The notes under the pieces are model-generated. The model was given only the letters and a program-made list of their open reading frames with translations, searched no databases and was not told the origin of the DNA. Shown here piece after piece: positions 15,051 through 19,064 of a DNA stretch of 64,000 nt. The stretch's first letter is position 1. The number at the start of each line of letters is the position of its first letter. Source of the DNA: Aneurinibacillus uraniidurans. Lineage in GTDB: Bacteria; Bacillota; Bacilli; Aneurinibacillales; Aneurinibacillaceae. The position numbers were made by a program, and so were the translations under genes. The stretch is taken from NCBI RefSeq assembly GCF_028471905.1, contig NZ_CP116902.1, forward strand, positions 1,276,501-1,340,500, read 5' to 3'.

Positions 15051-17135
15051 ATGTCCCGCTGGATTAAAGATGTGAGTAATTCAATTATGATGCAGCCTGT
15101 AACAGCTGTTAAAGGAATCGGGGCGGAACGAGCGATTGAACTTGCGGCACTCCAGATTGAAACCGTACAGGATTTGCTGGAGCATTTTCCGTACCGCTAT
15201 GAGGATTATCGGGTACGTGATCTAAGCGAAGTCCAGGATGGAGAGAAAATTACGATTATCGGTACGGTGTATGGCGAGCCGGTCGTTCGCTTCTACGGAG
15301 CTAAGAAATCACGCATTACCGTTAAAGTCGTAGTGGATAACATTGTTGTTACGGCAATCTGGTTTAACCGGGGATTTTTAAAAAGCCAGCTTCGTGCCGG
15401 ACGCGAAATTATGCTGTCTGGCAAGTTTGAACGGGCTCGCCTGCAAATTATGGTGAGCGAGCAGCATTTTCTTGATACCGAGCGGGTAAAGGTACAGGAA
15501 GGTACGATTCAGCCGGTCTATTCGATAACGGGAGGGATGCAAGTCAAGCAGATGCGCCGTTTTATCATAGCAGCGCTTGAACAGTTTGGTGATTCGATCG
15601 ACGAGATTTTGCCGGAGGATCTCGTGCGTAAGTATAAACTGGCCTCCCGTCGCGATGCGATTCGTAACATTCATTTTCCAGAGAGTGTGCAGGCGGGCAA
15701 GCAGGGGCGGCGCCGACTTGCATTTGAAGAGTTACTGCTGTTTCAATTGCGACTACAGGCGTATCATGCGATCAACCGACAAGCACGTGATGGAGTGGCC
15801 CAGCATGTTCCGCTTGAGAAGGTACACACTTTTATTCACAGCCTGCCATTTCCGTTAACGAATGCGCAGAAGCGAGTCATCAAAGAGATTCTTGATGACA
15901 TGCAGGCACCTTATAGCATGAACCGACTGCTGCAAGGTGACGTTGGTTCTGGAAAAACCGTTGTCGCTGCGATTGCGCTTTTGGCTACGATAGAGGCGGG
16001 GTATCAGGGAGCGCTTATGGTGCCAACTGAGATTCTTGCTGAGCAGCATTACGAGACGCTATCTGAGCTTTTGGCACCGCATGGAATTGAAGTGGCGCTG
16101 TTATCTGGAAGTGCTACCGTACGAAAACGACGCGATATTCTGGGAGGGCTGCAATCGGGTTTAATTCAGGTCATCGTTGGTACGCACGCACTCATTCAGG
16201 AGGACGTATATTTTGCAAAGCTTGGGCTTGTGATTACAGACGAGCAGCACCGGTTCGGGGTGGAGCAACGCCGTATTTTGCGAGAGAAGGGGCTGAATCC
16301 AGATGTGCTGTTTATGACAGCGACGCCAATTCCGCGTACACTGGCCATTACAGCATTCGGTGATATGGATGTATCCACAATTGATGAGCTTCCCGCGGGA
16401 CGTAAACCGATTGAGACGTACTGGGTACGCCATGATATGCTTGACCGCATTCTTGCATTTGTACGCAAAGAACTTGATCGGGGACGGCAGGCGTATGTGA
16501 TCTCGCCGCTCATTGAAGAGTCTGAGAAGCTTGATTTGCAGAATGCGATTGATGTACACGCACAGTTAAGTCAATATTTTGCGGGCACGTACCGGGTTGG
16601 TCTTATGCATGGACGACTTGTGCCGCGGGAGAAAGACGAGGTTATGCAGCAGTTTAGCCGCAATGAGGTACAGGTGCTTGTCTCAACAACCGTTGTTGAG
16701 GTTGGGGTGAATGTACCGAATGCGTCGGTCATGGTGATTTATGATGCGGAGCGATTCGGCTTGGCTCAGCTTCATCAGCTGCGCGGACGTGTGGGTCGGG
16801 GGGCTGAGCAATCGTATTGTATTCTGATTGCAGACCCGAAATCTGAGACTGGCAAAGAGCGGATGCGGATTATGACGGAGACGAATGATGGGTTTGAAGT
16901 GGCGCAGCGCGATCTGGAGCTGCGTGGTCCAGGGGATTTCTTCGGGACGAAGCAGAGCGGATTGCCGGAGTTCAAGGTGGCGGATGTCGTACAGGACTAT
17001 CGAATGCTTGAGGTGGCACGTCAGGAGGCGGCTGATATGGTGCGAGGAGAAGCGTTCTGGAGCAGCCCGCAGTATCGAGCACTGCGGGCATACTTGAAGC
17101 AGGATGAGTACTTTCTTACGAAAATAAAAGATTAA
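15051..17135 (+). CDS. recG: ATP-dependent DNA helicase RecG
   Basis: A branch-migration helicase of 694 residues. The N-terminal wedge/OB domain shows F-P-Y-R-Y-E-D-Y near residue 45. Walker A G-D-V-G-S-G-K-T lies near 298, then D-E-Q-H near 397 and T-A-T-P-I-P-R-T near 423. The C-terminal helicase motifs (S-T-T-V-V-E-V-G-V-N-V-P; Q-L-R-G-R-V-G-R-G) and the TRG segment follow. RecG remodels stalled forks and recombination intermediates. The start is uncertain: ATG 15051 lacks a good ribosome binding site, and ATG 15087 (M-M-Q-P-V) would give 682 residues, nearer the usual length. Its stop overlaps the stop of the convergent mgtC gene. Confidence 0.95.
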   Translation: MSRWIKDVSNSIMMQPVTAVKGIGAERAIELAALQIETVQDLLEHFPYRYEDYRVRDLSEVQDGEKITIIGTVYGEPVVRFYGAKKSRITVKVVVDNIVVTAIWFNRGFLKSQLRAGREIMLSGKFERARLQIMVSEQHFLDTERVKVQEGTIQPVYSITGGMQVKQMRRFIIAALEQFGDSIDEILPEDLVRKYKLASRRDAIRNIHFPESVQAGKQGRRRLAFEELLLFQLRLQAYHAINRQARDGVAQHVPLEKVHTFIHSLPFPLTNAQKRVIKEILDDMQAPYSMNRLLQGDVGSGKTVVAAIALLATIEAGYQGALMVPTEILAEQHYETLSELLAPHGIEVALLSGSATVRKRRDILGGLQSGLIQVIVGTHALIQEDVYFAKLGLVITDEQHRFGVEQRRILREKGLNPDVLFMTATPIPRTLAITAFGDMDVSTIDELPAGRKPIETYWVRHDMLDRILAFVRKELDRGRQAYVISPLIEESEKLDLQNAIDVHAQLSQYFAGTYRVGLMHGRLVPREKDEVMQQFSRNEVQVLVSTTVVEVGVNVPNASVMVIYDAERFGLAQLHQLRGRVGRGAEQSYCILIADPKSETGKERMRIMTETNDGFEVAQRDLELRGPGDFFGTKQSGLPEFKVADVVQDYRMLEVARQEAADMVRGEAFWSSPQYRALRAYLKQDEYFLTKIKD

Positions 17136-17647
17136 TCGTCCTCGCTTTCTTTTAGCGATTTTTTCTGACCAAAAAGCCTGATTTGACGATTTTCTAGAAA
17201 GTGGCCGATACTGATAACACCATACATAACCAGCATGGTATAGGTGGTCATCAAATAGTAGCCGGCTCCGATGCTAATGCCAATTGCACCGGCAAAGAAC
17301 ACCATGGAGGCAGAAGTGAGGCCTTTGACAGAACCGCTCTTTTGAATGATCAGTCCTGCGCCGAGAAAGCCTAACCCGCTTACAATTTGCGCGGCTAGGC
17401 GCAGCGGATCCATCATCGTGCGGCCAGGAATGGAGTAACGATCTACAGTATGGATAGACACCAGGGTAAGAAGTGTCGCAGCGACTGTTACAAATGTATA
17501 GGTTTTGATGCCAGCCGGTTTAGAATGAACGGTGCGTTCAAGACCAATAACGAACCCGAACAGGGCACTCATTGACAGGCGGATATACATCTCTATATCT
17601 TCATAGTGTTCAATGGAATGCCAGATGTATAGCCAGAAATCTTTCAT
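17132..17647 (-). CDS. MgtC/SapB family membrane protein
   Basis: A 171-residue protein with four to five hydrophobic segments. It carries the MgtC family motifs G-L-E-R (about residue 36, in F-V-I-G-L-E-R) and the G-L-G-F-L-G-A-G-L-I-I segment near 92-101. MgtC proteins are linked to growth at low magnesium and to control of ATP synthase in some pathogens; the substrate is unsettled. Here a hydrophilic K/E/D tail replaces the larger C-terminal domain of enterobacterial MgtC. The gene is convergent with recG; their stop codons share the bases TTA/TAA. A structured minus-strand RNA with a terminator lies about 75 bases upstream. Confidence 0.88.
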   Translation of the reverse strand: MKDFWLYIWHSIEHYEDIEMYIRLSMSALFGFVIGLERTVHSKPAGIKTYTFVTVAATLLTLVSIHTVDRYSIPGRTMMDPLRLAAQIVSGLGFLGAGLIIQKSGSVKGLTSASMVFFAGAIGISIGAGYYLMTTYTMLVMYGVISIGHFLENRQIRLFGQKKSLKESEDD

Positions 17648-17719
17648 AAGTTAGGTCACCTCTCTCTATGCGTGCTATTGATTTTACCATATTCGACACG
17701 AAAGAAGAGATGCCGAAAA

Positions 17720-17871
17720 AATAAAAAAACCGTCCGGTTATAGGCCGGACGGGCATGCTAAACGCTGCGCGTTCAGCTTGCATAATGGGAGAGGAGAAAC
17801 CGGAGGAAGAGCTTATGGGGAAACGTAAGTCTTCTCCGCGGTTGTCGGCAGTACGGACATGCCGTACCGCT
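17720..17871 (-). ncRNA. csfG: CsfG-like sporulation small RNA (ylbH/rsmD intergenic RNA)
   Basis: Minus-strand RNA of about 150 bases. Read 5' to 3' it has a G-T-A-C-G-G/C-C-G-T-A-C hairpin, then a GAAGA...TCTTC hairpin with C-rich loop. A pyrimidine-rich single-stranded stretch (CTCTTCCTCC, TTTCTCCTCTCCC) follows, with anti-ribosome-binding-site character. Next come a 9-bp GCTGAACGC/GCGTTTAGC hairpin and a strong terminator (CCGTCCGG/CCGGACGG plus T7, 17752-17723). CsfG of B. subtilis is a forespore RNA in the ylbG-ylbH interval, and ylbH is rsmD, the next gene here. A sigma-F type promoter lies exactly upstream. Alternative: a leader controlling mgtC. Confidence 0.65.
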
Positions 17872-17876
17872 ACTAG

Positions 17877-17906
17877 TATTGTGGACGCAAATGGTGCATC
17901 CTATAC
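17877..17906 (-). promoter_or_regulatory. Sigma-F type (forespore) promoter for the CsfG-like RNA
   Basis: On the minus strand GTATA (17906-17902) fits the sigma-F -35 G-Y-W-T-A. After 15 bases, GTCCACAATA (17886-17877) fits the -10 G-g-n-n-A-n-A-n-T-r. This places the start near 17870, just before the first hairpin. The AATACTA nearby also resembles a sigma-G -10. Confidence 0.5.
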
Positions 17907-17932
17907 ATGAAAGCATAGAAAAATATCAAGCA

Positions 17933-17961
17933 TTTACCATAATTTTTGTTTATGTTATACT
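17933..17961 (+). promoter_or_regulatory. Sigma-A type promoter of rsmD-coaD
   Basis: TTTACC (17933-17938), 17-base spacer and TATACT (17956-17961) lie about 30 bases before the rsmD ATG. This promoter sits downstream of the structured region, so that structure is not part of the rsmD message. Confidence 0.65.
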
Positions 17962-17992
17962 AACGGCGTTTACTATAGTACGGAGGGAAATT

Positions 17993-18547
17993 ATGCGCGT
18001 AGTTTCTGGCTCGAAGAAGGGCCATCCACTGCAGGCTGTATCGGGCAAGGGAACCCGTCCGACAGTTGATAAAGTGAAAGAGTCGATTTTTAATATGATT
18101 GGTCCGTATTTTGATGGGGGGCTTGCCCTTGATTTATATGCGGGCACAGGCGGTCTTGGAATTGAAGCGCTCAGCCGCGGCGTGGAGAGATGTATTTTTA
18201 TAGATGCGAATCGCAAAGCTGTAAGCGTTGTCTATAAAAATCTTGATGCTACCGGACTTCGGGATCAGGCAGAGGTATACTGTAACGATGCGAACCGGGC
18301 GCTGAATGCACTTGCCAAACGCGAGCTTGTTTTTGATCTTGTGTTTCTTGATCCACCTTATGCGGAGCAGAAGATTGAGAGTCAGCTGGGGATTATGAAT
18401 GACCATGGTCTTCTGGCATCAGGGGCACTCATTGTGGCTGAGCATGATGCCAAAGATAAGATGTGTGAGCAGATCGCAGATATTGTGAAGATACGCGAGA
18501 CGACATATGGACAAACGGTTATTACGATTTACCGCAAGGAAATATAG
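17993..18547 (+). CDS. rsmD: 16S rRNA (guanine-966-N2)-methyltransferase RsmD (YlbH)
   Basis: A 184-residue SAM-dependent methyltransferase. It has the typical start M-R-V-V-S-G-S-K-K-G, the SAM loop L-D-L-Y-A-G-T-G-G-L-G near residues 43-53 and the catalytic D-P-P-Y near 121. It methylates N2 of G966 in 16S rRNA. The ATG at 17993 is preceded by CGGAGGG; the frame is open upstream to 17879 but has no supporting site there. It is co-transcribed with coaD, 23 bases downstream, as in most Firmicutes. Confidence 0.95.
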   Translation: MRVVSGSKKGHPLQAVSGKGTRPTVDKVKESIFNMIGPYFDGGLALDLYAGTGGLGIEALSRGVERCIFIDANRKAVSVVYKNLDATGLRDQAEVYCNDANRALNALAKRELVFDLVFLDPPYAEQKIESQLGIMNDHGLLASGALIVAEHDAKDKMCEQIADIVKIRETTYGQTVITIYRKEI

Positions 18548-18555
18548 ATATGTAA

Positions 18556-19064
<509 letters not shown>

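Follow-up and report, generated by a model that had tools for sequence, protein, structure and literature searches.

CsfG and similar small RNAs in Bacilli

In Bacillus subtilis, the small RNA CsfG is the reverse-strand transcript of the DNA known as the "ylbH" motif, and in Northern blotting only that strand was detected (PMC3574147). This RNA co-precipitates with Hfq, and its level drops modestly in an hfq mutant (PMC3574147). CsfG is controlled by sigma-F and sigma-G, is restricted to the forespore, and possesses C-rich regions like those of RoxS and FsrA (PMC9147052, PMC8216469, PMC4409812); for RoxS, which has comparable C-rich regions, binding to a ribosome-binding site has been described (PMC4409812). 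A CsfG transcript of B. licheniformis is tabulated in PMC3871023. As to function, the passages on CsfG in papers of 2021 and 2022 give it no identified target, and the introduction of PMC12456014 words it as a known mRNA regulator, citing the founding paper.

Organization of the mgtC-rsmD intergenic region

In the window, i.e. the whole stretch of 64,000 nucleotides analysed, a gap of 345 bases was located between an mgtC-like gene (17132–17647, minus strand; an open frame named after the first-pass annotation) and rsmD (ylbH; open frame, 17993–18547, plus strand), and the minus strand of this gap carried a promoter, four hairpins, and a T-run terminator. The transcript predicted from promoter and terminator, designated csfG, extended over nt 17722–17870 of the minus strand (about 149 nt), with a start point taken to lie near 17870, 7 bases past the -10 box; its RNA had a predicted fold with z = -6.1, and the opposite strand matched Rfam family RF00516 (ylbH leader). 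The rsmD gene is the divergent neighbour of csfG, and the mgtC-like gene begins 75 bases past the csfG terminator. A consensus scan placed a sigma-70-like promoter for rsmD at 17933–17961 on the plus strand, divergent from csfG and downstream of the structure, as the first-pass annotation had stated; including this site, the scan returned five consensus matches over 551 bases, against 0.9 expected. Positions 17295–19013 of the window shared 73% DNA identity with Aneurinibacillus danicus (L251).

The promoter, of the sigma-F/G type, was found by pattern match at 17877–17906 on the minus strand and consisted of GTATA (17906–17902), 15 bases, and GTCCACAATA (17886–17877). Since one match was observed in the window versus a mean of 0.17 in shuffled sequences, with at least one in 16 of 100 shuffles, the pattern alone is not rare, and what makes the promoter convincing is its conserved place in relatives. 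For this comparison, 91 Bacilli loci were used, namely the 30 best-scoring RF00516 matches, 60 spread over genera among the matches listed, and the window, a set drawn from the better-scoring matches, with weaker ones left out, and therefore favouring uniformity. The GTATA-N15-GTCCACAATA promoter proposed earlier held up, a promoter being present in the matching place in 88 of the 91 loci (window included), where the best sigma-F type site was situated 20 to 45 bases before the motif; the exceptions were L054, L069, and L070. A promoter score of at least 10 (maximum 11) was reached in 77 of the 91 loci; Markov sequences would be expected to give 1.25 such loci, and the opposite strand gave 1. 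The T-run terminator, which had likewise been predicted, was confirmed by a terminator scan and inspection of the sequence as an intrinsic terminator at 17723–17752 on the minus strand, with a hairpin (17752–17730) followed by seven T residues.

The rsmD gene was present in 90 of the 91 loci and was divergent and upstream of csfG in 85. Five loci had csfG inverted, pointing at rsmD, with the promoter kept (L010, L011, and L012 of family f15; L048 and L049 of family f7); these are natural inversions, occurring in two families. An mgtC gene followed csfG in seven of the 91 loci, all seven belonging to the window's own family. Because the orientation of rsmD varies in five loci and mgtC follows in only seven, the csfG unit looks autonomous, i.e. 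independent of both neighbours, as far as gene order can tell.

Assignment to the CsfG family

The covariance model RF00516 matched nt 17721–17841 of the plus strand at 84.8 bits against a cut-off of 50 (E = 2.6e-16 over 64 kb). It was the sole Rfam match above cut-off in the window and was present in a single copy in the window's own genome, which also encoded SpoIVA (E 4.1e-251), a sporulation marker rather than a spore test. The identity with CsfG and the ylbH motif, put forward in the first-pass annotation along with a covariance search and an alignment of the same gap from relatives as means of checking it, is thus supported by the covariance match, a sigma-F type promoter, a terminator, the adjacency of rsmD, and co-occurrence with a sporulation gene; in the comparison of relatives, the promoter stood in the matching place in all but three of the loci, and all 91 carried the C/U tail described below without a mismatch. 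The window element is a further member of the already known CsfG family, and it is very probably csfG, the gene of a trans-acting RNA. 

Three other assignments were rejected. Against Hrs13 (RF02631), whose cut-off is 52 bits, the csfG strand scored a weak 26.4, and the element is therefore not a member of that family; a minus-strand match to Hrs12 was below cut-off; and a coding RNA was discarded, the core consensus containing no ATG, GTG, or TTG.

Predicted fold and the C/U tail

The minus-strand RNA of nt 17871–17721 was predicted to fold with -60.9 kcal/mol (z = -6.1), and none of 200 shuffled sequences was as good. With z = -4.4, the plus strand outdid its shuffles too, so that the fold by itself cannot tell which strand is transcribed. 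Of the three hairpins claimed previously, their presence was upheld but not their number, as the predicted fold has four, the 5' hairpin, the core hairpin, a third one, and the terminator hairpin. The hairpin at the presumed 5' end, P1 (17847–17870, minus strand), was kept in relatives with its sequence free to vary: all 91 Bacilli transcripts were predicted to open, within their first 4 bases, a hairpin of 5 bp or more, whereas Markov controls did so in 41.7 of 91 cases on average. The core hairpin P2 (17798–17843, minus strand), bearing the loop UUUCCCC, was delineated from the fold, an alignment of 60 sequences, and pair counts. P2 was compatible with 96.1% of the pair cells in a selection of 30 core sequences, of which 27 were distinct. 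Two-sided pair changes numbered three, all in L030, a single lineage, whereas a control slid by one column had six, but with 51.5% pairing; covariation support for P2 is thus thin, as the compensatory cells come from L030 alone and the slid control has more of them. The third hairpin, P3 (17753–17781, minus strand; from the fold), was variable, being missing or fused with the terminator in some relatives.

Both the loop and the tail of csfG are C/U-rich and unpaired by the predicted fold. The tail UUUCUCCUCUCCC (17787–17799, minus strand), the proposed pairing element, was exact in all of the Bacilli loci compared. The pyrimidine-rich single strand reported earlier was therefore found in part: its sequence is present, and the last nine bases are predicted to be at least 82% unpaired, but the first four only 14% to 44%. 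Since the hairpins change or vanish among relatives while the strand stays, the C/U strand itself is likely to be the working part of CsfG, judging from these comparisons.

Distribution among Bacilli

RF00516 was detected in 230 of 398 Bacilli genomes, 193 of them above the Rfam cut-off, and SpoIVA in 269. Both were present in 229 genomes, RF00516 only in 1 (G324), SpoIVA only in 40, and neither in 128; the p-value of 6e-67 for this association overstates the case because the genomes are related. G324, the sole one of the 230 carriers without a SpoIVA match, is a genome that is 97% complete and may have lost sporulation or be missing sequence. More than one csfG-like match per genome was seen in G106, G164, G185, G452, G510, and G668, which may represent second copies or assembly doubles.

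A model designated R1, built for the csfG strand, was applied to 40 genomes in which RF00516 had found nothing (27 from family f4 and 13 others, with G287 left out). It recovered nine further diverged Bacilli members, from families f8, f12, and f48, below E = 0.005. The tail UUUCUCCUCUCCC was kept in all nine, including L095 and L096, in which the sequence of P2 was mostly rewritten; in L092 and L094 the CUUCCUCC block was missing. The promoter score was at least 10 in two of the nine and 8 or 9 in the others. Reading of the rsmD locus added two more csfG members, in G118 and G015, the latter with a changed tail.

Family f4 had no RF00516 match, and 26 of the 27 f4 genomes listed carried SpoIVA, in diverged form (E 6e-10 to 3e-169). 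R1 gave nothing below E = 0.05 in these 27 genomes, the best value being 0.052 in G374, away from its rsmD, and no diverged csfG was seen in the 450 bases upstream of rsmD in 20 genomes of the family. In G026, G060, and G374, SpoIVA was diverged with E of about 1e-162 to 1e-168, and no csfG was detected. Hence, one SpoIVA-bearing family seems to be without csfG; if its genomes sporulate, CsfG would be dispensable in some lineages. Our guess is that f4 corresponds to the Planococcaceae. A search of named genomes for a pattern of promoter, 55 to 85 free bases, and tail returned at least 119 stretches, mostly with Bacilli titles; no Lysinibacillus, Sporosarcina, or Ureibacillus was among the matches listed, which would agree with this guess.

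Distribution beyond Bacilli

Six matches to this pattern from non-Bacilli or unplaced genomes were inspected, from Moorella sp., Fermentithermobacillaceae, and four Firmicutes or Bacillota metagenome-assembled genomes. A divergent rsmD or coaD lay beside the RNA in five of them, and the short contig of the sixth carried neither gene. Across the phylum to which the Moorella genome belongs, a 23-base core with at most three mismatches was found in 145 of 299 genomes, 94 of them with none, versus 10 of 299 for the core pattern read backwards; the sample includes some Bacilli (L275-L280 are of Bacilli type), so that the 145 are not all outside Bacilli. With at most two mismatches, the core was present in 127 of 250 SpoIVA-bearing genomes versus 3 of the 49 others, and was thus missing at this threshold in 123 of 250, about half, of the SpoIVA-bearing ones. 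In the 55 rows with mismatches, 81 mismatches fell on the first 10 positions of the core and 22 on the last 13; fourteen of these 22 sat in eight scattered three-mismatch rows of a chance-like kind. Within the core, the UUUCUCCUCUCCC tail was therefore what varied least across the phylum sample.

From the first rows of the tables, 38 loci judged by eye to be of non-Bacilli type were examined (L269-L272, L274, and L281-L313; L273 was dropped as too short). The promoter score was at least 10 in 29 of them, where 0.76 would be expected and the opposite strand gave 1; in 30 loci rsmD or coaD was identified, divergent every time; and a run of five T residues occurred downstream in 26 of the 38. Among 19 diverged loci, comprising 13 of the 38 and 6 from Bacilli, none reached the RF00516 cut-off, and sub-cut-off matches were obtained in 10, the best with 41.8 bits. 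Thirty rsmD loci were also inspected from 40 SpoIVA-bearing genomes of the phylum sample without the core; five had a diverged tail (L314, L321, L329, L334, and L341), and no csfG was recognised in the remaining 25.

The shortest forms were those of L307-L311 (Bacillota), in which the tail was kept and only 45 to 48 bases separated it from a preceding promoter-like site, too few to accommodate P1 and the 5' half of P2. L310 alone of these has rsmD in its locus, and the other four were recognised by sequence alone. Several lineages have thus shed hairpins and kept the 13-base tail with much of the preceding strand, which narrows the target question; the tail offers a defined probe for pull-down, and L307-L311 represent natural minimal forms.

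Forms of csfG therefore appear to occur outside Bacilli, below the Rfam cut-off, to judge by core, promoter, and neighbouring genes. These comparisons suggest that the ylbH entry of Rfam 15 is built on the wrong strand and does not extend to members of clostridial type. The founding CsfG paper, by Marchais et al. in 2011, reportedly has "highly conserved in endospore formers" in its title, and the spread beyond Bacilli may for this reason already be in print; a literature search, in which this paper was known through those citing it, returned no report of CsfG outside Bacilli.

Possible mode of action and rival explanations

Promoter, hairpins, terminator, conservation, independence from neighbours, and co-occurrence with sporulation were read from sequence, and expression of csfG in the forespore is expected by analogy with the B. 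subtilis papers. In the mechanism proposed, forespore RNA polymerase with sigma-F, and later with sigma-G, would start near 17870 on the minus strand and stop at the T-run near 17723, yielding an RNA of about 149 nt with both ends capped, by the 5' hairpin and the terminator hairpin. The core hairpin would show UUUCCCC in its loop, with most of UUUCUCCUCUCCC unpaired behind it, and this C/U ribbon would pair in trans with G/A-rich ribosome-binding sites, and thereby lower their translation in the forespore, on the model of RoxS/RsaE and FsrA. Translation-start pairing is the first choice because RoxS, with its similar C-rich regions, binds such a site, and we consider it reasonably probable; many ribosome-binding sites, on the other hand, would not obviously demand 13 unchanged letters. 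The ability to pair with these sites, claimed in the first-pass annotation, accordingly stands as a proposal, the target search having given no conserved target. 

In that search, the tail complement (G-U allowed) occurred at 11 sites in the window's own genome, csfG and 10 others, and the pattern read backwards likewise at 11. Four of the 10 further sites lay directly before plausible start codons, yunB among them. The ribosome-binding site GGGAGAGGAGGGG of yunB (L258, C1:577380-577392) could form a 13-base duplex with the tail of csfG. However, no fixed tail complement was found in 30 yunB start regions (taken from 30 of 46 matching genomes, with script-selected starts), where the longest duplexes ranged from 5 to 14; a control with rsmD starts gave 4 to 11, a weak comparison as these came from other genomes. 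As the complement was not kept across species, yunB received no support as a conserved CsfG target, and none was found via the tail-complement sites of the own genome and the yunB starts.

A protein could read the ribbon instead. The C/U ribbon would then bind a conserved protein, Hfq or another forespore RNA-binding protein, which CsfG would store or sequester, the identity as csfG being shared with the pairing proposal. A nearly invariant run of 13 letters on a scaffold that is altered or lost is consistent with such a role, as are the co-precipitation of B. subtilis CsfG with Hfq and its fall in the hfq mutant, although the Hfq dependence reported there is only modest (PMC3574147). Because 13 fixed letters exceed the needs of generic Shine-Dalgarno pairing, a protein partner is a serious rival, even if we regard it as rather unlikely. 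Pairing with the ribosome itself appears highly improbable. According to this proposal, CsfG CUUCCUCCGGUUU pairs with 16S rRNA AAACCGGAGGAAG, the segment before GUGGGGAUGACG, and silences ribosomes; an exact 13-base complement exists in the rRNA of a Bacilli genome (16S was found in 10 of the 40 stretches compared), a complement of at least 13 was reached in only 13 of 2000 random cores of the same dinucleotide make-up, and in G497 and G459, two genomes of clostridial type, the complement would persist by way of a G-U pair. GGUUUCUCCUCUCCC, the best-conserved stretch of CsfG, nevertheless matches no more than 8 bases, and L092, L094, and L095 have lost the complementary segment. This segment is also broken in family f5 (CUUCGUCC in L044, L045, and L046) while the f5 16S is unchanged, and conversely the 16S differs in the f8 genome G114 while CsfG of other f8 genomes (L093, L097, and L098) keeps GGUUU. 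In L384, the 16S rRNA before GTGGGGATGACG exactly complements csfG CUUCCUCCGGUUU over 13 bases, and this csfG segment has been lost in several lineages.

The cis-acting readings concern the two neighbours. A leader of mgtC, with a terminator that is read through or switched, had been named as the alternative on account of the shared strand and of mgtC lying so close beyond the terminator; the RNA occurs without mgtC in 84 of the 91 loci, and in the window the terminator separates it from mgtC, so that this alternative was not borne out and is extremely improbable. A plus-strand leader of rsmD/ylbH is what Rfam proposes in typing RF00516 as a cis-regulatory leader, and the near-constant presence of rsmD beside the motif and the good fold of the plus strand agree with it. 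The promoter and terminator, however, are on the other strand, the promoter-like site for rsmD is beyond the structure, the five inverted loci keep the csfG promoter, and in B. subtilis the Northern blot detected the reverse strand only (PMC3574147); we give an rsmD leader practically no credence.

Returning to a trans-acting CsfG, a wider picture may be offered, tentatively and as one that may well prove wrong. CsfG would be an ancient RNA of Bacillota spore formers, rather than the Bacilli family to which the Rfam cut-off confines it, and would have as its most fixed part a ribbon of about 37 nt, (U)CCCCAURAGCUCUUCCUCCGGUUUCUCCUCUCCC, which, above all in its last 13 letters, would be read by one universal partner, either translation-start sites or a conserved protein, and would reset expression in the forespore, with hairpins rewritten or lost in several lineages.

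Comparison with known systems

The window element and CsfG of B. subtilis are alike in strand, in promoter type (sigma-F/G), in size, with 136 nt given for B. subtilis (PMC3574147) and about 149 nt predicted here, in the adjacency of rsmD (ylbH), and in possessing C/U-rich stretches. They differ in the downstream neighbour, which is mgtC in the window versus ylbG in the B. subtilis arrangement as described, where csfG is situated between ylbG and ylbH. RF00516 and csfG are the same DNA, but Rfam models the complementary strand and types it as a cis-regulatory leader. Bvs196, a forespore small RNA of B. velezensis, is described as being under forespore control by sigma-F and sigma-G, as is CsfG, but it differs in locus (hinT-ecsA) and length (294 nt), and is likened to CsfG by description and not by sequence (PMC9147052). 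The assignment of S547 conflicts between the accounts in two papers, being the B. subtilis homologue of Bvs196 in PMC9147052, where that homologue is also called S357, and CsfG in PMC8216469. RoxS/RsaE and FsrA, which answer to other signals (ResDE, Fur) and have known targets, are also likened to CsfG by description rather than sequence; what the accounts of these RNAs have in common with CsfG is C-rich unpaired regions and a proposed pairing with Shine-Dalgarno sequences (PMC4409812, PMC8216469).
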